Source: an uncultured Clostridia bacterium (GTDB lineage Bacteria; Bacillota_A; Clostridia; Peptostreptococcales; Anaerovoracaceae). Taken from it: a DNA stretch of 7,271 nucleotides. A program made the position numbers and the translations under genes. The stretch lies in assembly GCA_946645735.1 (NCBI GenBank), contig CAMPCK010000041.1, positions 1 through 7,271 of the forward strand, given 5' to 3'. The notes below the pieces were generated by a model, which had not been told where the DNA came from, made no database searches, and saw only the letters and a list, made by a program, of their open reading frames with translations. Positions 1-6,950 of the stretch are shown here, piece by piece (within the stretch, counting starts at the first letter, position 1; every line of letters starts with the position of its first letter).

Positions 1-1625
1 AGACAAGAAACGGCAAGCGTACAGCACAGGCTGCCGGAAAGATCGCTGTAGACATGGTAGGCGAAGGTCTTATCGACAAGGCTACAGCTGTTACAAGACT
101 TGAACCTCAGCAGATCGATCAGCTGCTCCATCCTATGTTTGCGGCTGACGAGCTCAAGAAAGCAAAGGATATCGCCAAGGGACTTCCCGCTTCTCCCGGA
201 GCGGCCTGCGGACACATCTACTTCTCAGCTGATGAGGCTACAGAAGCCGCTGCAAACGGTGAGAAGGTCATCCTCGTAAGAGCGGAGACATCACCTGAAG
301 ACCTTGCGGGAATGGTTGCAGCTGAGGGTATCCTCACAGCCAGAGGCGGTATGACTTCACACGCTGCAGTAGTTGCCAGAGGAATGGGCAAGTGCTGCGT
401 TGCAGGATGCTCAGAAGCCAGAGTGGATGAAGAGACCAAGACGGTATCCTTCGAGTCAGGCGCAACCTTCAAAGAAGGAGACGTGATCTCCATAGACGGA
501 TCCACAGGTTTCATCTATGGTGAAGCCATAAATACTGTAGAACCCGACGTTTCAGGAGACTTTGCTACGCTCATGGGCTGGGCGGACGAGATAAGGACGC
601 TTAAGGTCAGAGCCAACGCAGACAATCCCAGAGACGCTAAGCAGGCTGTGGAATTCGGATGTGAAGGAATCGGTCTTTGCAGGACCGAGCACATGTTCTT
701 CGAGGAAGAAAGAATACCTGCCATCAGAAGGATGATCGTAGCTGAAACAGCTGAAGAGAGAAAGGCTGCTCTTGATATAATCAGACCTTTCCAGCAGGGA
801 GATTTCAGAGAGATGTACAAGGTACTGGGAGAGATGCCCATGACCGTCAGACTCCTGGATCCTCCTCTCCACGAATTCCTTCCTCATACTGAGGAGGAGA
901 TCAGAGATCTCGCAAAGACGATGAATATCAGCTATGAGAGACTCCAGGGCACAGTTGATGAGCTCCATGAGCTCAATCCTATGCTCGGAACCAGAGGATG
1001 CAGACTTGCAGTTCTTTATCCGGAGATCGCAGAGATGCAGACCGAAGCCATAATCGGCGCAGCTATAGAAGTAAAGAAGGAATGCGGTTTCAATATCGTT
1101 CCTGAGATAATGATACCTCTCGTAGGTGAAGCCAGAGAACTTACCTTCGTAAAGGAAAAGGTAGTGGAGACCGCTGACAGGATGATAGAAGAAGCAGGTA
1201 TCGAGATGAAGTACATGGTGGGAACCATGATCGAGATACCCAGAGCAGCTCTTACGGCAGATGAGATCGCCAAGGACGCTGAGTTCTTCTCATTCGGAAC
1301 CAATGACCTTACCCAGATGACTCTGGGCTTCTCCAGAGACGACACAGGCAAACTCCTTGAGTACTATGTCGATAAGGGAATCTATGAAGAGGATCCTTTC
1401 AAGACTATAGACGTCGACGGAGTAGGCAAGCTCGTTGAGATGGCTGTTAAACTCGGCAAGCAGACAAGACCCAATATCAAGCTCGGCATCTGCGGAGAGC
1501 ACGGCGGAGATCCGAAGAGCATCGATTTCTGCCACAGGGTGGGCCTGACATACGTATCATGTTCACCTTTCAGAGTTCCTATTGCAAGACTGGCTGCTGC
1601 CCAGGCTGCAATAAAGAACAGATAA
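1..1625 (+). CDS. ppdK: Pyruvate, phosphate dikinase (C-terminal part, cut by left window edge)
   Basis: Cytoplasmic enzyme interconverting pyruvate + ATP + Pi and PEP + AMP + PPi; in anaerobes it often runs in the glycolytic, ATP-forming direction. The frame is open from base 3, so the gene starts upstream; by comparison with the about 874-residue Clostridium symbiosum enzyme, about 335 residues (the ATP-grasp part) are missing. What remains is the swivelling phospho-histidine domain, motif GGMTSHAAVVARG with the catalytic His codon at 360-362, and the complete PEP/pyruvate TIM barrel. Barrel residues recalled from the C. symbiosum enzyme are all present: Arg (GLCRTEH, 681-683), Arg (TVRLLDPP, 849-851), Glu (MIEIPRA, 1233-1235), Asn (GTNDLTQ, 1302-1304) and the acid/base Cys (GICGEHGG, 1491-1493). 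The Thr two residues before the His (354-356) is the position phosphorylated by PPDK regulatory proteins in plants and some bacteria. The stop is TAA at 1623-1625. No terminator follows, so transcription may run into the next gene. Confidence 0.97.
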   Translation, partial: TRNGKRTAQAAGKIAVDMVGEGLIDKATAVTRLEPQQIDQLLHPMFAADELKKAKDIAKGLPASPGAACGHIYFSADEATEAAANGEKVILVRAETSPEDLAGMVAAEGILTARGGMTSHAAVVARGMGKCCVAGCSEARVDEETKTVSFESGATFKEGDVISIDGSTGFIYGEAINTVEPDVSGDFATLMGWADEIRTLKVRANADNPRDAKQAVEFGCEGIGLCRTEHMFFEEERIPAIRRMIVAETAEERKAALDIIRPFQQGDFREMYKVLGEMPMTVRLLDPPLHEFLPHTEEEIRDLAKTMNISYERLQGTVDELHELNPMLGTRGCRLAVLYPEIAEMQTEAIIGAAIEVKKECGFNIVPEIMIPLVGEARELTFVKEKVVETADRMIEEAGIEMKYMVGTMIEIPRAALTADEIAKDAEFFSFGTNDLTQMTLGFSRDDTGKLLEYYVDKGIYEEDPFKTIDVDGVGKLVEMAVKLGKQTRPNIKLGICGEHGGDPKSIDFCHRVGLTYVSCSPFRVPIARLAAAQAAIKNR

Positions 1626-1676: not shown

Positions 1677-2129
1677 GTGAAAGGTATACTTTACACATTT
1701 TTCATATCAATGGTCCCTGTTATTGAACTGAGGGGAGGGATCCCCGCAGGAGTGGCAGCAGGACTCCCGGTATTCTGGGCTGCTTTGATATCCATTATCG
1801 GAAATATGATACCGGTGCCTTTTGTACTCTTCTTCATCAGAAAACTGCTGGTGTGGATGGAGCAGAAGAGCAGCCTGCTCGGGAGGTTCGCAAAGATGCT
1901 CAGGGACAGGGCTGACGCCAATAAGGAAAAGGTCCTGAAATATGAATTCTGGGGTCTGGTCCTTCTGGTCGCCATACCGCTTCCGGGAACGGGAGCGTAT
2001 ACCGGCGCATTGGTAGCTGCCATGGTTGATATGCAGATCAAGAGAGCTGTACCTGCCATATTTATAGGCGTAGTCATAGCGGCAATAATAGTAAGTCTGG
2101 TTACTACCGGTGTAGTGGCTATGTGGTAA
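1677..2129 (+). CDS. COG2426-type small multidrug export family membrane protein
   Basis: A 150-residue hydrophobic protein that I recognise as the COG2426 / Sm_multidrug_ex (PF06695) type. Family membership rests on the motifs PVIELRGGIP (residues 14-23) and PLPGTGAYTGA (about 101-111), which are typical of these proteins, and on the short length. Hydrophobic segments lie at about residues 4-28, 31-58, 91-117 and 124-148. A charged loop of roughly residues 61-90 (EQKSS...RDRADANKEK) sits between the second and third, giving about four membrane passes. The 'multidrug export' name is a database label; the substrate and even the transport role are not well established for the family. Start is GTG at 1677, 51 bases after ppdK. 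The next gene follows after only 14 bases, so it is almost certainly co-transcribed with the sigma-54 activator. That leaves open a link between the activator's signal and export or uptake of a metabolite, which is speculation. Confidence 0.82.
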   Translation: MKGILYTFFISMVPVIELRGGIPAGVAAGLPVFWAALISIIGNMIPVPFVLFFIRKLLVWMEQKSSLLGRFAKMLRDRADANKEKVLKYEFWGLVLLVAIPLPGTGAYTGALVAAMVDMQIKRAVPAIFIGVVIAAIIVSLVTTGVVAMW

Positions 2130-2143
2130 AGAGAAACACACAC

Positions 2144-4231
2144 ATGAAAGACTTTGGCATTAAAAGGGTACTGGAACCCAAGGGCTCCATACCCGTAGCG
2201 GCATGGAAACTTGATAATTCAAAGAAGATCCGGTCTGATGAGATCCGGATCTCTTTGGATTGGATAGATTTTGAAAGAGACAATATGGACCAGATCGCTT
2301 CGATCTCGGGATATGATCAGGCAGAGACGAGAGCCCGTATCATGAAGATCGTAGAGGAGAGGGGAAAGTTCCATAACCCTTACACTGAATCAAGCGGAGT
2401 TTTTTCGGGGATCATAGAAGCCTGCGGCAAGAACGTGGATCTGGATTCCAAGGGACTCAGGATAGGAGACAGGGTAGTGGCTGCCTGTCCTCTGGCAGGC
2501 CTTCCCATGTATCTGGAAGAGATAACCGAACTGGATTTCAACTACAGCCAGGCCAAGGTGAAGGGATACGTGATCTGCTTTGAGACCACCAACCTTTACC
2601 GCGTTGATGACAGCATAACGAACATCCAGCATCTTCTGAGGGCTATCGATGAAGAAGGAAACTTCGAGGGCATACAGTATGAACTCATGACCCACAGGTC
2701 GAGAAACGTTGCCGTCGTAGGAAGCAATCTGGCTGAAGCGGTCCTCTATTCAAACCTGGTCAAGAAGACGTGGTTCGGAGACTGCAGGGTCACCTTCATA
2801 ATGGATAAAGCCTATCTTTATGAGGGAATGGAGGAGGACCTCAGGGAGGTATTCGGAAACGCCGCAGACAGGATCATCGGAGTCAGCCTGTCCAGTCCCT
2901 ATGAGGCCGGCCTTGAAGTGGTCAGGAGCGAAGAAGGCAGACTGTTTGACTGTACGATAAACCTCGAGAATATTGCGGGATGCGACAGCTTCACGGCGCT
3001 GATTACCAGGAATAAGGGTGAGATCTGCTTCATAAGCATGAGCAACAGATACAATCAGAGCATGCTCGCAGCGGATTCCATGGGCAAGGAAGTCTTCTTC
3101 TACGCACTGGACGGATTCAAGGATACGACCTTCGAGTTTTCCAGAGAACTGGTAGAGTATTCCAGGTCATGTCTTGAAAGGCTTGACAGCTTCTATGCTG
3201 AAAAGACTTCTCAAAGAGGAATGCCTATACTGGAGGCATCCCTGGGAGAGAGGACGAAGAAAGCCGCAAAGAATATCGACAACTTCATTTACGAGTCTCC
3301 GAAGACCGGTGAAATGGTCGAGGAGATCCTGAACATCGCCCGCTACGACGCGAACGTGATCATTCAGGGAGAGACCGGTTCCGGAAAGGAAAGAGTATTC
3401 GACCTGATCCTGCAGAATTCCATTAGAAGGGATAAACCGGCCATAAAGATAAACTGTGCCACCATCCAGGAAAACCTGGCAGAAAGCGAGTTTTTCGGCT
3501 ACGAAAAGGGATCTTTCACAGGAGCTTCATCGGACGGAAAAGAAGGATACTTCTCCCTTGCGAACAACGGAACTTTGTTTCTGGATGAGATAGGAAGCCT
3601 GCCTCTTGACATGCAGGCCAAGCTTCTCAGAGTCCTTCAGGAGAACACTTTCTATAAGATAGGAGGGACTGAACCCATACATGTCAACGTAAGGGTCATC
3701 GTGGCGAATAACGTACCTCTCAAAAAACTTGTCGAAGAAGGAAAGTTCAGAGAAGACCTCTATTACAGACTGAATATATGTCAGATAAACGTTCCGCCTC
3801 TGAGAGCCAGAACGGAGGACATAGTTTGCCTTGCAGATGCCTTCCTTGAGAATTACAGCAGGAAGTACGGCATAGCAAAATCATTCTCTGCCGACGCCTA
3901 CAAGGAACTCATGACATATCACTGGCCCGGAAACGTAAGGGAACTGGAGAACACAGTTCACAGGCTCTACATCACTGAAAGAAGCGATGTGATAGACGGC
4001 GATGATGTGAACGGAATGCTGAATGAAAGCGTGTTCGATGACGTGGTCGTGGACGTCAAAAATGAGTTCAGCAGAGAGAAGGATCTGAACTTTGATTCAA
4101 TAATGAGTCAACAGGAGAAGCGTCTCATCGCTTTTGCACTTAAAAAAGAGGGCACGACGAGGGCTGCAGCGGAGTTTTTGGGAATGTCCCAGGCAACTCT
4201 TGCCAGAAAAAAGCTGAAATACGGGCTGTAA
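2144..4231 (+). CDS. Sigma-54 enhancer-binding activator with a Kdd-like (3,5-diaminohexanoate dehydrogenase) sensor domain
   Basis: A 695-residue transcription activator of RNA polymerase-sigma-54. Residues 1 to about 355 resemble L-erythro-3,5-diaminohexanoate dehydrogenase of lysine fermentation, judged from memory. Shared features are an N-terminal RVLEPKG..PVAAWKLDN segment, a GroES-like SGVFSGIIEACG...IGDRVV part (about 84-112) and a Rossmann half. In that half the expected GxGxxG is degraded to VVGSNLAEA (about 191-199), so binding of NAD or catalysis may be lost. Residues about 383-620 are the AAA+ domain: Walker A GETGSGKE (409-416), a GSFTGA sigma-54 contact loop (456-461, usual form GAFTGA), Walker B LFLDE (D481, E482), arginine fingers in FREDLYYR (R536, R542) and sensor II WPGNVRE (594-600). 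Residues about 661-695 form a Fis-type HTH. ATG at 2144 is preferred; an in-frame GTG at 2123 would overlap the previous gene and has no good ribosome site. There is no phosphoacceptor receiver domain, so a small ligand is the likely signal. Confidence 0.92.
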   Translation: MKDFGIKRVLEPKGSIPVAAWKLDNSKKIRSDEIRISLDWIDFERDNMDQIASISGYDQAETRARIMKIVEERGKFHNPYTESSGVFSGIIEACGKNVDLDSKGLRIGDRVVAACPLAGLPMYLEEITELDFNYSQAKVKGYVICFETTNLYRVDDSITNIQHLLRAIDEEGNFEGIQYELMTHRSRNVAVVGSNLAEAVLYSNLVKKTWFGDCRVTFIMDKAYLYEGMEEDLREVFGNAADRIIGVSLSSPYEAGLEVVRSEEGRLFDCTINLENIAGCDSFTALITRNKGEICFISMSNRYNQSMLAADSMGKEVFFYALDGFKDTTFEFSRELVEYSRSCLERLDSFYAEKTSQRGMPILEASLGERTKKAAKNIDNFIYESPKTGEMVEEILNIARYDANVIIQGETGSGKERVFDLILQNSIRRDKPAIKINCATIQENLAESEFFGYEKGSFTGASSDGKEGYFSLANNGTLFLDEIGSLPLDMQAKLLRVLQENTFYKIGGTEPIHVNVRVIVANNVPLKKLVEEGKFREDLYYRLNICQINVPPLRARTEDIVCLADAFLENYSRKYGIAKSFSADAYKELMTYHWPGNVRELENTVHRLYITERSDVIDGDDVNGMLNESVFDDVVVDVKNEFSREKDLNFDSIMSQQEKRLIAFALKKEGTTRAAAEFLGMSQATLARKKLKYGL
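4093..4110 (+). promoter_or_regulatory. Copy 1 of the 18-bp TGANTCA-pair motif, inside the activator gene
   Basis: TGATTCA-ATAA-TGAGTCA: two pseudo-palindromic heptamers whose starts are 11 bp apart. It is nearly identical to the intergenic copy at 4273-4290 (16 of 18 bases). It lies in the coding region just before the HTH and encodes DSIMSQ, so it could be chance. The match in sequence and in spacing to the intergenic copies argues that it may be a distal operator, about 350 bp upstream of the predicted sigma-54 start site. Confidence 0.4.
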
Positions 4232-4241
4232 CCATCAGCTA

Positions 4242-4259
4242 TGACTCAAAAATGACTCA
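4242..4259 (+). promoter_or_regulatory. Copy 2 of the 18-bp motif: candidate upstream activator site
   Basis: TGACTCA-AAAA-TGACTCA: a direct repeat of two pseudo-palindromes one helical turn apart (starts 4242 and 4253). It begins 10 bases after the activator's stop codon. At about -203 to -186 relative to the predicted start site near 4445, it falls in the usual range for sigma-54 enhancer sites. The Fis-type HTH of the adjacent gene product is the expected binder (inference). Confidence 0.6.
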
Positions 4260-4272
4260 AAAGCTCCTTAAA

Positions 4273-4290
4273 TGATTCAATAATGAATCG
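4273..4290 (+). promoter_or_regulatory. Copy 3 of the 18-bp motif: candidate upstream activator site
   Basis: TGATTCA-ATAA-TGAATCG, containing the perfect inverted repeat GATTCA-ATAA-TGAATC. It starts 31 bp after copy 2, almost exactly three helical turns, so both copies face the same side of the DNA. A further degenerate pair (TGAATAT-GAAA-TGATCG, 4304-4320) continues the 11/20 bp rhythm but matches poorly. Confidence 0.6.
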
Positions 4291-4321
4291 AATCGAGCGG
4301 ATATGAATATGAAATGATCGT

Positions 4322-4360
4322 GGCTTTGGATGTTTTGACAGGCATCCGAAGCCTTTTTTT
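4322..4360 (+). terminator. Rho-independent terminator of the activator gene
   Basis: GGCTTTGGATG (4322-4332) pairs with CATCCGAAGCC (4343-4353): 11 pairs with one G-U, around a 10-base loop, followed by seven T. It should end the transcript that runs through the membrane-protein and activator genes. It sits between the proposed activator sites and the sigma-54 promoter, so it also insulates the repeat-protein gene from read-through. Confidence 0.9.
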
Positions 4361-4372
4361 ACAAAAAACGGG

Positions 4373-4401
4373 TTTTAAAAAAATTTTTTTAAGAATTTTT
4401 T
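4373..4401 (+). other. A/T tract (A7T7 plus T6) between activator sites and sigma-54 promoter
   Basis: TTTT, then A7T7 at 4377-4390, then AAGAA and T6. Phased A/T runs of this kind can curve DNA. At this place, between enhancer sites and a sigma-54 promoter, curvature could help looping in place of IHF. I see no IHF consensus. The functional reading is inference. Confidence 0.35.
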
Positions 4402-4418
4402 CGCTTTCCGGATAGTTT

Positions 4419-4434
4419 TGGCACGCATGATGCT
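4419..4434 (+). promoter_or_regulatory. Sigma-54 (-24/-12) promoter of the repeat-protein gene
   Basis: TGGCACG-CATG-ATGCT against the consensus TGGCACG-N4-TTGCW has one mismatch. The invariant GG (4420-4421) and GC (4432-4433) are separated by exactly 10 bases. With the C of the GC at -12, transcription would start near G4445, leaving an A-rich leader of about 54 bases without obvious structure. No sigma-A promoter with clear -35 and -10 boxes is seen here. A sigma-54 activator gene directly upstream makes the call much stronger. Confidence 0.88.
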
Positions 4435-4484
4435 TTATATATGGGCGTAAACCGAAAAAAAAATAAACTTATATAAATAAATGT

Positions 4485-4490
4485 GGAGGG
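4485..4490 (+). promoter_or_regulatory. Ribosome binding site deciding the start at 4499
   Basis: GGAGGG lies 8 bases before ATG at 4499. The in-frame ATG at 4481 overlaps this site and has no ribosome site of its own, so it is not the start. Confidence 0.8.
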
Positions 4491-4498
4491 AAAGAAAA

Positions 4499-5242
4499 AT
4501 GGATATGAAGAAATACCTTGATTTCGCTTTTGAAACTGCAGTAGATACTATCGACGTAGGAGCTTTTGGTCATGATGACGCTAAGAAGATCATCATCACC
4601 GGTATGAAGGCTTTCCTTAAGAAGAACGATTTCGAATTCACAGATGAAGAGATCGAAGCAAGAGCAGAAGCAGGCCTTAAGGGACTTGCAGTAGCTGACG
4701 CTGATTTCGATACAAAGCACAGAGCTGATTCCGTAAACGCTCCCAAGGAAACCACAAGAGAAGATCTCCTTGGATATGCTTTCGATTCTGTTACAGCAAC
4801 TCTCGATCTCGGCGGATTCAAGGCTGAGGACGCTGTTAAGATGGCAGTAACAGGAATGATGGCTTATTCTGCATCAAACGGCCAGAACTTCTCACAGGAA
4901 GAAGTAAAGGCTTTCGTAGCTAAGAAGATGAAAGAACTCGCAGTAGCAGACGCTGACTTCGATAAAGAGCACAGAGATGATTCCGTAAACGCTCCTAAGG
5001 AGACTACACATGAAGACTTCCTTGAATTCGCATTCGATTCCGTAACAGCAACTCTCGACCTCGGCGGATTCAGACCTGAAGATGCACTTAAGATGGCAGT
5101 TACAGGAATGAAGGCTTATGCATATGATAACAACCAGAAGTTCACAAACGAAGAGATCATCAACGCTGCAAAGAAGAAGATGAAAGAGATCTTCGGAGCT
5201 TCAAAGGATTACGAGTATCAGGATTGGTCAATGCCCAGATAA
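4499..5242 (+). CDS. Unrecognised acidic protein with three tandem 84-residue repeats
   Basis: I do not recognise this 247-residue protein. It is built from three head-to-tail units of 84 residues without indels: 5-88, 89-172 and 173-247, the last shortened and divergent after about 55 residues. Each unit has a helical-looking first half ([FY]AF[DE]..., then [LI]D[LV]G[GA]F...[DE]DA.K, then TGM.A[FY]) and a second helix (EE[IV]...). In units 1 and 2 this is followed by a conserved segment, LAVADADFD.[KE]HR.DSVNAPKETT. The protein has no Cys, one Trp, no signal peptide and no membrane segment. By my count it has about 49 Asp+Glu against 32 Lys+Arg, so it is acidic and probably soluble in the cytoplasm. 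The DxDxD in units 1 and 2 recalls an EF-hand loop, but the Gly at position 6 and the acidic residue at position 12 are missing. A sigma-54 promoter, a strong ribosome site and a narrow codon choice suggest high, conditional expression. It is apparently monocistronic, closed by a terminator at 5352-5380. Confidence 0.93.
   Translation: MDMKKYLDFAFETAVDTIDVGAFGHDDAKKIIITGMKAFLKKNDFEFTDEEIEARAEAGLKGLAVADADFDTKHRADSVNAPKETTREDLLGYAFDSVTATLDLGGFKAEDAVKMAVTGMMAYSASNGQNFSQEEVKAFVAKKMKELAVADADFDKEHRDDSVNAPKETTHEDFLEFAFDSVTATLDLGGFRPEDALKMAVTGMKAYAYDNNQKFTNEEIINAAKKKMKEIFGASKDYEYQDWSMPR
4511..5239 (+). repeat. Three tandem 252-bp coding repeats
   Basis: Units start at 4511, 4763 and 5015 with an exact 252-bp period; the third is 225 bp up to the last sense codon. 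Units 2 and 3 are the closer pair in their first halves (shared FAFDSVTATLDLGGF-like coding stretch). Units 1 and 2 share the linker half, including GATTCCGTAAACGCTCC in both. This pattern suggests internal duplication followed by loss of the linker half in the last unit. Confidence 0.9.
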
Positions 5243-5249
5243 ACCGGTA

Positions 5250-5342
5250 TTAAGAGAACATCCGGGTCAGCCTTAATAGATAAGATAAGTTAATAAAGAT
5301 AAATAAAGATAAGATAATTATACCGACCCTATTTTCTCTTAA
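5250..5342 (+). other. Long-range hairpin around a GATAA-rich 3' UTR segment
   Basis: TTAAGAGAA (5250-5258) is perfectly complementary to TTCTCTTAA (5334-5342). Inside it, GGGTC (5264-5268) pairs with GACCC (5325-5329). The enclosed 56 bases are A/purine-rich with five GATAA copies starting at 5279, 5284, 5298, 5308 and 5313. It lies between the repeat-protein stop and its terminator, so it would be part of that mRNA's 3' UTR. Role unknown; mRNA protection or protein/RNA binding are possibilities. Confidence 0.45.
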
Positions 5343-5351
5343 ATATAAAAC

Positions 5352-5380
5352 AAAAAACTGCGCCAGAAGCGCAGTTTTTT
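5352..5380 (+). terminator. Strong intrinsic terminator after the repeat-protein gene
   Basis: Bases 5352-5363 (AAAAAACTGCGC) pair perfectly with 5369-5380 (GCGCAGTTTTTT) around a CAGAA loop, giving a 12-bp stem with an A-tract before and a T-tract after. Its symmetry means it could work in both directions. Confidence 0.93.
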
Positions 5381-5381
5381 G

Positions 5382-5411
5382 TTGACTGGGGAGAAGGGGA
5401 TATAGTATATT
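5382..5411 (+). promoter_or_regulatory. Sigma-A promoter of the uracil permease-pyrR operon
   Basis: TTGACT (5382-5387) and TATATT (5406-5411) are separated by 18 bases. A start site near 5418 would leave a leader of about 170 bases containing the attenuator. The overlapping TATAGT at 5401 is too close to the -35 box. Confidence 0.7.
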
Positions 5412-5427
5412 AGTTTATGGAAAAAAC

Positions 5428-5517
5428 ATCTTTAAATCGGTACAGAGAGACCGGCAAGATCTAACATAGGGTGACAGATATGCTTTAACTTGACTTGCCG
5501 CGGGGCAGGTCTTTTTT
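5428..5517 (+). promoter_or_regulatory. PyrR-type pyrimidine attenuator (binding loop, antiterminator, terminator)
   Basis: Three mutually exclusive RNA structures can be drawn. The PyrR-binding anti-antiterminator has ATCTT (5428-5432) with AAGAT (5456-5460), then TCGGT (5437-5441) with ACCGG (5450-5454), around a loop holding CAGAGA (5443-5448). This loop matches the CNGNGA loop known for PyrR sites, although the closing pair is A-G rather than the usual C-G. The antiterminator pairs CGGCAAG (5452-5458) with CTTGCCG (5494-5500). The terminator pairs GACTTGCC (5492-5499) with GGCAGGTC (5504-5511), followed by six T. Expected logic: UMP-bound PyrR holds the first hairpin, frees the terminator and lowers expression of the permease and of pyrR itself, which is encoded at 6973. 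Confidence 0.85.
5492..5517 (+). terminator. Attenuator terminator in the uracil permease leader
   Basis: An eight-pair stem (one G-U) with a GCGG loop and a T6 tail. Its 5' arm is the same sequence used by the antiterminator, so termination should be conditional. Confidence 0.85.
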
Positions 5518-5585
5518 GTTGCATAGACCCCGTGCCAGGCAGATGTTTTTAGGAAATTATCACTGGTAACCATAAGGAGGAAATT

Positions 5586-6950
5586 ATGGGAAAGACACAG
5601 AATCAAACAGCCATCTATGACGCCAGAAAAGAACTGGGTCACGGCAAGGTGGCAATACTGGGACTTCAGCACATGTTCGCCATGTTCGGCGCGACTGTAC
5701 TCGTACCCATCATCACAGGTTTAAGCGTATCTACAACACTTTTATTCGCGGGACTTGCAACGCTGTTCATGCACTTTGTGACAAACTTCAAGGTTCCTGT
5801 ATTCTTAGGCTCATCCTTCGCATTCCTCGGAGGATATGCAGCGGTCAAGGCTGCCGGAGTGGCAATGGGATATTCCGACAGGGTCTCCCTTAACTACGCA
5901 TGTATAGGCGTTGCCTGCGCAGGACTTGTATACTTCGTCCTCGCACTTGTCTGCAAGGCCTTCGGTTCCAAGAGGGTAATGAAATTCTTCCCTCCTGTAG
6001 TTACAGGACCCATCATCCTGGCCATCGGCCTTATCCTGGCACCTTCTGCCATCAACAACTGCTCCACCAACTGGCCCATCGCACTTGTAGCCATCCTGGT
6101 GGTTATCATCTGCAATATCTGGGGTAAAGGAATGATCAAGATCGTTCCCATCCTTCTCGGAGTTATAGTTTCCTATGCTTTTGCTGCTGTTACGGGAAAC
6201 GTCGATTTCTCAGCGATAGCAGACGCTCCCTGGATCGGACTTCCCGTTATCTGGGAGAACACAGGACTCTCGATCTTCACTGAAGGCAGTGTTGATGCAG
6301 GTCTCTTACTTACAGCCATCATAACCATCGTTCCCATCTCATTTGCTACCATGATGGAGCACGTTGGCGACATCTCCGCTATCGGAGGAACGGTAGGAAA
6401 GAACTTCATCGAAGATCCCGGTCTCCACAAGACGCTTATCGGTGACGGTATCGGAACATCCATCGCATCACTGTTCGGAGCTCCCGCAAACACCACCTAT
6501 GGTGAGAACACCGGAGTTCTCGCTCTTACCAAGGTATACGATCCCTTCGTAGTAAGGCTTGCAGCCTGCTACGCTATGGTGCTCTCATTCTGCCCCAAGT
6601 TCGCGGCAGTGATCGAGATCATGCCCGCAGCTACCATCGGCGGCGTATCCATCATCCTCTACGGTATGATCTCCGCTATCGGTATCAGAAACATGGTTGA
6701 AAACAAGACTGACTTCCAGCAGTCAAGAAATATCATCATCGCAGCCCTCATCATCGGCCTTGCTCTCGGAATCAACTTCTCCGATGCAGGAGCAGTAAGC
6801 TTCATGATTGGCTCCATGAGCGTAAACCTTTCCGGACTTGCAGTCGCTTCCATCGTAGGTATCGTGCTCAACGCCATCCTTCCCGGAAGAGATCAGGCCT
6901 TCGGAGACCAGCCGGACGAGACGCTGGCATCATCTCTCGGAAAGTATTGA
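5586..6950 (+). CDS. pyrP: Uracil permease (NCS2 / UraA-PyrP family)
   Basis: A 454-residue polytopic inner-membrane nucleobase transporter, expected to import uracil by proton symport for the salvage pathway. Full length for the family. It has many hydrophobic stretches, starting with LGLQHMFAMFGATVLVPIITG, the typical NCS2 opening. The two substrate/proton Glu residues of E. coli UraA (E241, E290) correspond to E258 in MMEHVGDIS and E307 in NTTYGENTG; the 49-residue spacing is conserved. The segment GDGIGTSIASLFGAPANTTYGEN is a hallmark of uracil rather than xanthine/urate members. AAGGAGG (5574-5580) stands 5 bases before the ATG. The PyrR-type leader and the pyrR gene 22 bases downstream both support uracil as the substrate. 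The name pyrP follows the Bacillus usage; uraA is the equivalent. Confidence 0.95.
   Translation: MGKTQNQTAIYDARKELGHGKVAILGLQHMFAMFGATVLVPIITGLSVSTTLLFAGLATLFMHFVTNFKVPVFLGSSFAFLGGYAAVKAAGVAMGYSDRVSLNYACIGVACAGLVYFVLALVCKAFGSKRVMKFFPPVVTGPIILAIGLILAPSAINNCSTNWPIALVAILVVIICNIWGKGMIKIVPILLGVIVSYAFAAVTGNVDFSAIADAPWIGLPVIWENTGLSIFTEGSVDAGLLLTAIITIVPISFATMMEHVGDISAIGGTVGKNFIEDPGLHKTLIGDGIGTSIASLFGAPANTTYGENTGVLALTKVYDPFVVRLAACYAMVLSFCPKFAAVIEIMPAATIGGVSIILYGMISAIGIRNMVENKTDFQQSRNIIIAALIIGLALGINFSDAGAVSFMIGSMSVNLSGLAVASIVGIVLNAILPGRDQAFGDQPDETLASSLGKY

Follow-up and report, generated by a model that had tools for sequence, protein, structure and literature searches.

A putative self-contained sigma-54 switch joining a KDD-like activator to a repeat-protein gene in an uncultured Clostridia bacterium

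Among clostridial sigma-54 activators, 170 of 263 control one operon and most targets are colocalized, according to the part of a published regulon reconstruction cited here (PMC6615313); OrdR, in Table 1 of that work (Nie et al. 2019, PMC6615313), controls ord-ortBA-oraSEF-orr-nhaC. Here, we report a related layout in a 7,271-nucleotide stretch of DNA (the window; positions 1 to 7,271 of contig CAMPCK010000041.1, assembly GCA_946645735.1) from an uncultured Clostridia bacterium of the Anaerovoracaceae, in which a sigma-54 activator gene whose N-terminal half resembles L-erythro-3,5-diaminohexanoate dehydrogenase (KDD) is followed by a gene (the target) for a protein of three tandem domains of about 79 amino acids (aa) each. 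An original prediction, made from the letters of the window, had held a single adjacent target to be unusual for sigma-54, which the clostridial counts do not support; the unusual feature is instead the kind of target, the sole one observed in this lineage resembling neither an enzyme nor a transporter. Our literature search, with most subscription journals outside its coverage, found no report of this system. We read the locus as a self-contained one-component sigma-54 switch with a KDD-like sensor and an abundant binding or adaptor product, and put the probability of this explanation as a whole at about 0.6; its regulatory part, taken separately, appears highly probable from the sequence comparisons below.

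Activator and sensor

The predicted sigma-54 activator gene (Table 1) was borne out: its product matches Sigma54_activat (PF00158) with an expectation value (E) of 7.8e-63 (211.6 bits, above the curated cutoff of 20.2) and carries the AAA lid, the HTH_50 helix-turn-helix (HTH) and a GSFTGA loop, given as a functional GAFTGA variant in the cited part of PMC6615313. The half that had been called Kdd-like aligns over residues 4 to 353 with solved KDD sequences (E 1.1e-18, PDB 7dl3) and matches the KDD model NF052381 at E 6e-30, with 104.5 bits (below the cutoff of 200), so that the likeness stands. The KDD enzyme of genome G001 scores 238.1 bits on the same model. G001 (compared genomes carry our own numbers) is the metagenome-assembled genome RUG12614 ("uncultured Clostridiales bacterium"); it was treated as the same species as the window, with repeat proteins 98% identical, and stands in for the window's genome. 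Aligned with the G001 enzyme, the activator has VVGSNLAEA in place of the glycine-rich nucleotide motif VIGGGGKSG and retains the RV-x-x-PKG start and the GK-x-x-NP segment of KDD. We infer a pseudo-enzyme here, with a pocket for small molecules retained.

Operators, promoter, and number of targets

Three TGANTCA-N4-TGANTCA operators lie at the locus, with centers at about −318, −169, and −138 relative to the GG of the promoter; the paired, phased sites named in the original prediction were recovered together with one more (operator A), and an exact pair stands at the place matching A, before the activator's stop codon, in each of the relatives G001 to G004. The near-consensus −24/−12 promoter, the terminator of the activator gene (placed between operators and promoter), and the downstream gene with its own terminator hairpin were likewise found where they had been proposed. 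Terminator-like sites numbered 3 in positions 4100 to 5600, against 1.2 expected; the hairpin at 5349 to 5383 is assigned to the minus strand by the tool, and a T6 follows it on the plus strand by eye. The target reading frame is 253 aa long from position 4481, but the ribosome-binding site makes 4499 its probable start.

Exact operator pairs number 2, 2, 3, and 3 in the draft genomes G001 to G004, all at this locus, and pairs with one mismatch occur elsewhere 2, 1, 0, and 1 times. Because the exact operators of these genomes occur solely here, the sequences suggest one target for the activator in this lineage, and the single target of the original prediction is accordingly probable for it. 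Dedication of sigma-54 itself to this target was rejected, since each genome has several sigma-54 promoters: TTGGCACN5WTGCW occurs 2 to 16 times per genome on both strands, against 0 to 3 for a reversed control (18 relatives), and each of 18 genomes has 5 to 31 PF00158 matches, counts that include other AAA proteins (all 14 control genomes match too). rpoN (PF04552) was found in G001 and in three of the four genomes searched; G003 had no match.

Conservation of the activator-target linkage

The activator stands directly upstream of the repeat gene in all four relatives on genome contigs (G001 to G004). An activator profile was run on 349 genomes of the family, of which 184 match at E 1e-20, mostly through weaker KDD-type matches. 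A gene for the domain was present in the flanks (1.5 kb around the N-terminal match, or about 0.5 kb beyond the activator's end) of 20 of the 21 closest activators (E up to 4.6e-143), which goes against the refuting outcome named with the original prediction, a lack of conserved linkage in related genomes; the 21st, on contig C58 of G090, has no domain gene nearby. The domain gene also adjoins more distant activators in G063, G192, and G289. It was detected at E 1e-5 in 7 of 16 genomes with intermediate activators (a chosen set); those of G192 and G289 just miss this threshold (1.4e-5) yet stand beside the activator. In G343, G348, G349, and G168, it lies about 7 kb from the activator, with a promoter in the first three and none seen in G168.

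The promoter, also expected by the original prediction in other genomes, was found (TTGGCA[CT]N5[AT]TGC within 450 bp) at 23 of 24 activator-adjacent genes, with the window and G001 entered separately, versus 5 of 17 other domain genes, two of the five sharing one promoter. The 300 bp upstream of the promoter in these 23 loci held 52 operator-like sites (three mismatches or fewer, overlapping half-register matches included) versus 4.07 expected from mononucleotide shuffles; operator pairs were spaced by 31 to 33 bp in 14 loci and by 21 bp in 2 (G109 and G324), and 7 had no pair so spaced. Operators, promoter, and target recur jointly with the activator in the sequences of relatives, and pairs of this sensor and target are found again in related bacteria of the rumen and gut. 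An accidental arrangement, with an ordinary hypothetical gene after an unrelated activator and promoter- and operator-like sequences arising by chance, is contradicted by this conservation and by the absence of the gene at E 1e-5 from all 40 family genomes selected because they have no close activator (21 with weak KDD-type matches, 19 with none listed); we consider it hardly credible.

The repeat protein

The target product is an acidic, three-domain, probably helical protein (isoelectric point, 4.7; zero cysteines). It was predicted to be an undescribed repeat protein and appears so: three repeats were delimited, no Pfam or NCBIfam family was matched above its cutoff, the PDB held no clear relative, no relative was found on viral contigs, and PHROGs gave weak matches only (best E 3.5e-4, to a family of unknown function, with no stretch passing alone). 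The domain's best PDB profile matches, to designed helical repeats (E 2.6e-4) and, at E ~0.01, to Crp/Fnr regulators, were put down to helix composition. The names of 36 relatives of the protein (163 to 253 aa) and 41 relatives of the domain (58 to 93 aa) were uninformative, and Pfam labels on 3 of the 36 (PF13031 once, PF09682 twice) were set aside, the window protein falling below both cutoffs.

Most loci examined encode one copy of the domain; two occur in G195, which G341 resembles, and three in the window clade, G269, and G348. The three-domain versions outside the window clade (G348 contig C136; G269 contig C25, positions 3426 to 4112) each have a sigma-54 promoter in front. Aligned single-domain members mostly end in a tail such as DFxxQTWTMK. 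Seven paralogues of the domain occupy recurrent sites near dnaE/pfkA-like or aroK-like genes (named by eye); they have no sigma-54 promoter, which points to a regulator-independent role of the domain family.

A small domain with a conserved C-terminal end could also belong to a ribosomally made peptide precursor, with a Nif11-like or LigA-like leader and the tail as core peptide, and there is a weak match to SonA-type LigA-domain chains (E 0.48 to 1). No modifying enzyme was noticed among the neighbors by eye (no family search for such enzymes was made), Pfam gave no Nif11 match at the thresholds used, and the tail is conserved, whereas cores are usually variable. We judge a peptide precursor very improbable.

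In G001, the target has a codon adaptation index of 0.83 (activator, 0.44; median, 0.50), the fourth highest of 98 genes from eight regions, relative to six ribosomal-protein genes named by eye. Because its codon usage is ribosomal-protein-like, the product is probably abundant when induced, in keeping with the abundance claimed in the original prediction. As to selection on the protein, nonsynonymous (dN) and synonymous (dS) rates were 0.17 and 0.91 for the window versus G002 and 0.34 and 1.02 for G003 versus G002.

Negative feedback offers another account of the target. PspA acts on PspF as a negative-feedback partner, and the small protein could in the same way be an anti-activator, stopping its own synthesis by binding to the sensor or to the AAA+ motor; a feedback pair would be expected to show this arrangement, in which a conserved target lacking an enzyme signature lies next to its activator, and the C-terminal tail is conserved. 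The codon bias, however, points to protein amounts well above those a regulator would require, an antiporter but no domain gene accompanies several activators of the group in the regions examined, and many domain paralogues lie away from such activators and have no promoter. We regard an anti-activator as unlikely and retain the switch with an abundant binding or adaptor product.

Relation to YqeY

The best Pfam match of the window protein was YqeY (PF09424), at E 0.015 and 15.9 bits (below the cutoff of 27). Eleven YqeY proteins (from 14 Pfam matches in 12 related genomes) were ranked among 266 proteins, 255 of them others. They took the first 10 places with the single-domain profile (probabilities, 21 to 75), the eleventh coming 15th, and the first 11 with the repeat 2 profile (probabilities, 8 to 82); with the repeat 1 profile, the ranking was less clear (best, 39; background interleaved). 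Compared with an alignment of the 11 by hhalign, the single-domain, repeat 2, and repeat 1 profiles gave probabilities of 58.5, 69.3, and 11.4, which are weak scores; a value of 93% from an earlier run is biased, its sequences having themselves been domain-profile matches. By eye, the repeat linker ADFDxxxRxDSVNAP resembles ADFExxxRTDLV of YqeY. A distant relationship of the domain to the N-terminal domain of YqeY seems rather likely; by itself, it assigns the product no function.

The target profile, run on a sample of 197 family genomes, matched 19: G001 to G003 with three repeats, 14 with shorter relatives, and 2 by YqeY-type matches only. The matches of G087 and G090:C20:142508 were dropped as YqeY, and that of G173 (not translated) for a model span the same as that of YqeY matches; G090:C20:79618, a frame with a TAA, was excluded from counts. 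With the domain profile, 50 of 393 genomes match at E 0.001, of which 30 were kept at 1.4e-5 or better and 20 weaker ones dropped; eight dropped matches that were examined were five YqeY and three UvrB by eye, the UvrB count including an additional weak G193 match. The 30 retained genomes all fall in G001's family; in a class sample of 391, G001 and G076 alone matched.

Antiporters and lysine fermentation

In many relatives, the activator adjoins an NhaC/ArcD-like antiporter gene (some identified by Pfam and NCBIfam, others named by eye) with its own sigma-54 promoter; this is the case in G073, G175, G193, G195, G269, G339, and G341 and also in G343, G348, G349, G168, G270, and G145, where no domain gene is next to the activator. 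Relatives often combine one ~79-aa domain with a sigma-54-driven antiporter, and antiporter copies with a TTGGCA-type promoter were seen in G175, G044, G145, and G090. LysO lysine exporter genes and an arginine/ornithine-type antiporter occur near some activators. A link of the system to basic-amino-acid metabolism is probable, given these sigma-54-driven antiporters next to activators in many relatives. The ancestor's activator probably controlled the small protein and the antiporter; in the window's lineage, the sigma-54 promoter of the antiporter has apparently disappeared, so that one target seems to remain, with its domain in three tandem copies.

These arrangements could instead mean that the protein assists the antiporter as a soluble accessory, regulating or stabilizing basic-amino-acid exchange, with the pair forming a transport module. 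The sigma-54-driven antiporters beside activators, the near-operators upstream of those of G142 and G175, and the nearby LysO genes are on its side; against it, the antiporter of G001 and G003 is located elsewhere, with neither a TTGGCA-type promoter nor paired operators within 400 bp, no near-operators precede the antiporters of G044 and G145, and no close match to the antiporter was found in G004 and G166, which have the domain gene and whose assemblies may be incomplete. An accessory role is a doubtful alternative to the binding or adaptor product that we favor. Upstream of the same antiporter, G175 (contig C35) has a sigma-54 promoter with near-operators and G001 (C7:16676) a sigma-70-like sequence by eye, possibly a case of sigma-factor switching.

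A paralogous KDD-type activator in G001 (contig C17, 574 to 6996) stands between the genes for KDD, KamA (lysine 2,3-aminomutase), and KamB and that for Kal; sigma-54 promoters flank it on both sides. The paralogue is apparently a lysine-fermentation regulator; the literature search found no regulator of this type. Since this paralogue sits in a lysine-fermentation cluster, a lysine-pathway ligand is suggested for the window's activator, and we give a lysine-pathway compound or basic amino acid about an even chance.

Proposed mechanism and its weighing

A metabolite (3,5-diaminohexanoate, 3-keto-5-aminohexanoate, something similar, or another basic amino acid) would bind the KDD-like half and release the AAA+ motor; the AAA+ ring would assemble on the phased operators, and DNA looping would let it open RNA polymerase-sigma-54 at 4418, so that strong production leads one protein to accumulate. 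Our guess is that this product is an abundant noncatalytic binding or adaptor protein in basic-amino-acid metabolism that docks by its conserved C-terminal tail; any specific role is improbable as it stands. This includes a bolder version, equally tentative, in which a retired KDD serves as sensor and its output, an abundant stand-alone relative of the YqeY N-terminal domain, acts as a stoichiometric adaptor or buffer that retunes the cell during lysine fermentation, tandem copies (1, 2, or 3) tuning valency; the retuned process would possibly be translation or enzyme-complex related.

Several observations weigh against the explanation as a whole. None of the next 10 activator loci after the 21 closest has a domain gene in its flanks, and wider regions of nine of them contain none either. 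Conversely, G076, G133, G166, G286, and G344 have a domain gene and a weak best activator match (E 3e-80 to 2e-93), with promoter and operators solely at the G166 gene, near a contig end; domain genes without a close activator lowered our overall confidence slightly, from 0.62 to 0.6. The gene of G155 adjoins its activator and has no sigma-54 promoter within 450 bp. Many paralogues (12 of 17) lack the promoter, which means that the general function of the domain must be independent of this regulator. Near-operators were found upstream of antiporters only in G142 and G175 (two of five copies examined besides those of G001 and G003), the YqeY relation depends on weak profile scores, and the window and G001 (dN, 0.010; dS, 0.013) differ by too few changes to show selection. 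In a tree of 39 rows, the label "gene adjacent" changes at least seven times; the deepest rows are on long branches, and the association between activator and gene looks old and repeatedly broken. An obligate activator-target pair was ruled out by activators without the gene and genes without a close activator.

Upstream of the G155 gene (position 5935), a sigma-70-like TTGACA-N17-TAACAT was noted by eye; G109 and G182 have similar sequences in the interval from the promoter to the gene.

Neighboring genes and feature coordinates

The genes flanking the locus are given in Table 1. Positions 5415 to 5520 form the leader of the PF00860 permease gene, with a terminator-like hairpin (5492 to 5511) that resembles pyrimidine attenuation; an Rfam scan of the window, the permease leader included, gave no family at gathering score.

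Table 1. Positions of genes, domains, and regulatory elements in the window
Feature	Position	Strand	Basis
Phosphoenolpyruvate-utilizing enzyme, ppdK-like	3-1625	+	Name by eye
Membrane protein	1677-2129	+	PF06695
KDD-type sigma-54 activator, 695 aa	2144-4231	+	PF00158, PF25601 (AAA lid), PF18024 (HTH_50)
Sensor region, KDD-homologous, residues 4-353	2153-3202	+	NF052381 below cutoff; PDB 7dl3; alignment with G001 KDD enzyme
AAA+ sigma-54 interaction domain	3287-3787	+	PF00158, residues 382-548
GSFTGA loop	3509-3526	+	Sequence
C-terminal HTH DNA-binding domain	4100-4228	+	PF18024, residues 653-695
Operator A, TGATTCAATAATGAGTCA	4093-4110		Exact pair, within activator's coding end
Operator B, TGACTCAAAAATGACTCA	4242-4259		Exact pair
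Operator C, TGATTCAATAATGAATCG	4273-4290		One mismatch, 31 bp from B
Intrinsic terminator of activator	4322-4360	+	14-pair stem 4322-4353 and T-run
Sigma-54 −24/−12 promoter, TTGGCACGCATGATGCT	4418-4434	+	Consensus match
Ribosome-binding site, GGAGGG	4485-4490	+	Sequence
Target gene, 247-aa three-domain protein	4499-5242	+	Above no family cutoff
Domain repeat 1 with linker (ADFDTKHRADSVNAP)	4499-4753	+	
Domain repeat 2 with linker	4754-5005	+	
Domain repeat 3 with conserved C-terminal tail DYEYQDWSMPR	5006-5239	+	
Terminator hairpin 3' of target gene	5349-5390		16-pair stem, 5349-5383
Permease	5586-6950	+	PF00860
Phosphoribosyltransferase start, pyrR-like	6964 on	+	Name by eye

Comparison with known systems

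The locus would be a clean one-activator, one-target sigma-54 circuit in uncultured rumen bacteria, with a pseudo-KDD type of sensor that the cited part of the clostridial survey does not name and an unannotated small-protein family; once identified, the ligand would reveal the means by which lysine fermenters monitor their own pathway. In PspF-PspA, too, a sigma-54 activator stands beside a conserved nonenzymatic target; the window's activator differs in having a ligand-type sensor. KDD itself (NF052381; PDB 7dl0, 7dl1, and 7dl3) aligns with the N-terminal half of the activator, which unlike the enzyme has a sigma-54 activator fused on, lacks the glycine-rich nucleotide motif, and scores under the NF052381 cutoff. 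For the product's domain, the nearest known family is the N-terminal domain of YqeY (PF09424), a weak but specific likeness; unlike YqeY, the product has no C-terminal GatB-like domain and consists of one to three tandem copies of one domain.

The closest regulatory parallel is with the one-component sigma-54 regulons of Clostridiales, as far as the cited part of their description goes (PMC6615313). There, the sensors described are PAS, GAF, ACT, CBS, and others, none of them KDD-like; Table 1 has no lysine-fermentation activator; the operators are TGT-N10-12-ACA in 15 groups, versus TGANTCA-N4-TGANTCA here; and the present target resembles neither an enzyme nor a transporter. Shared with these regulons are an AAA+ activator with its own small-molecule sensor, an adjacent target, upstream sites, and a consensus −24/−12 promoter, and with that of OrdR a setting in amino-acid catabolism that includes an nhaC transporter. 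Sigma-54 one-component regulators themselves are known; this one stands apart by its unusual sensor and its unusual target.

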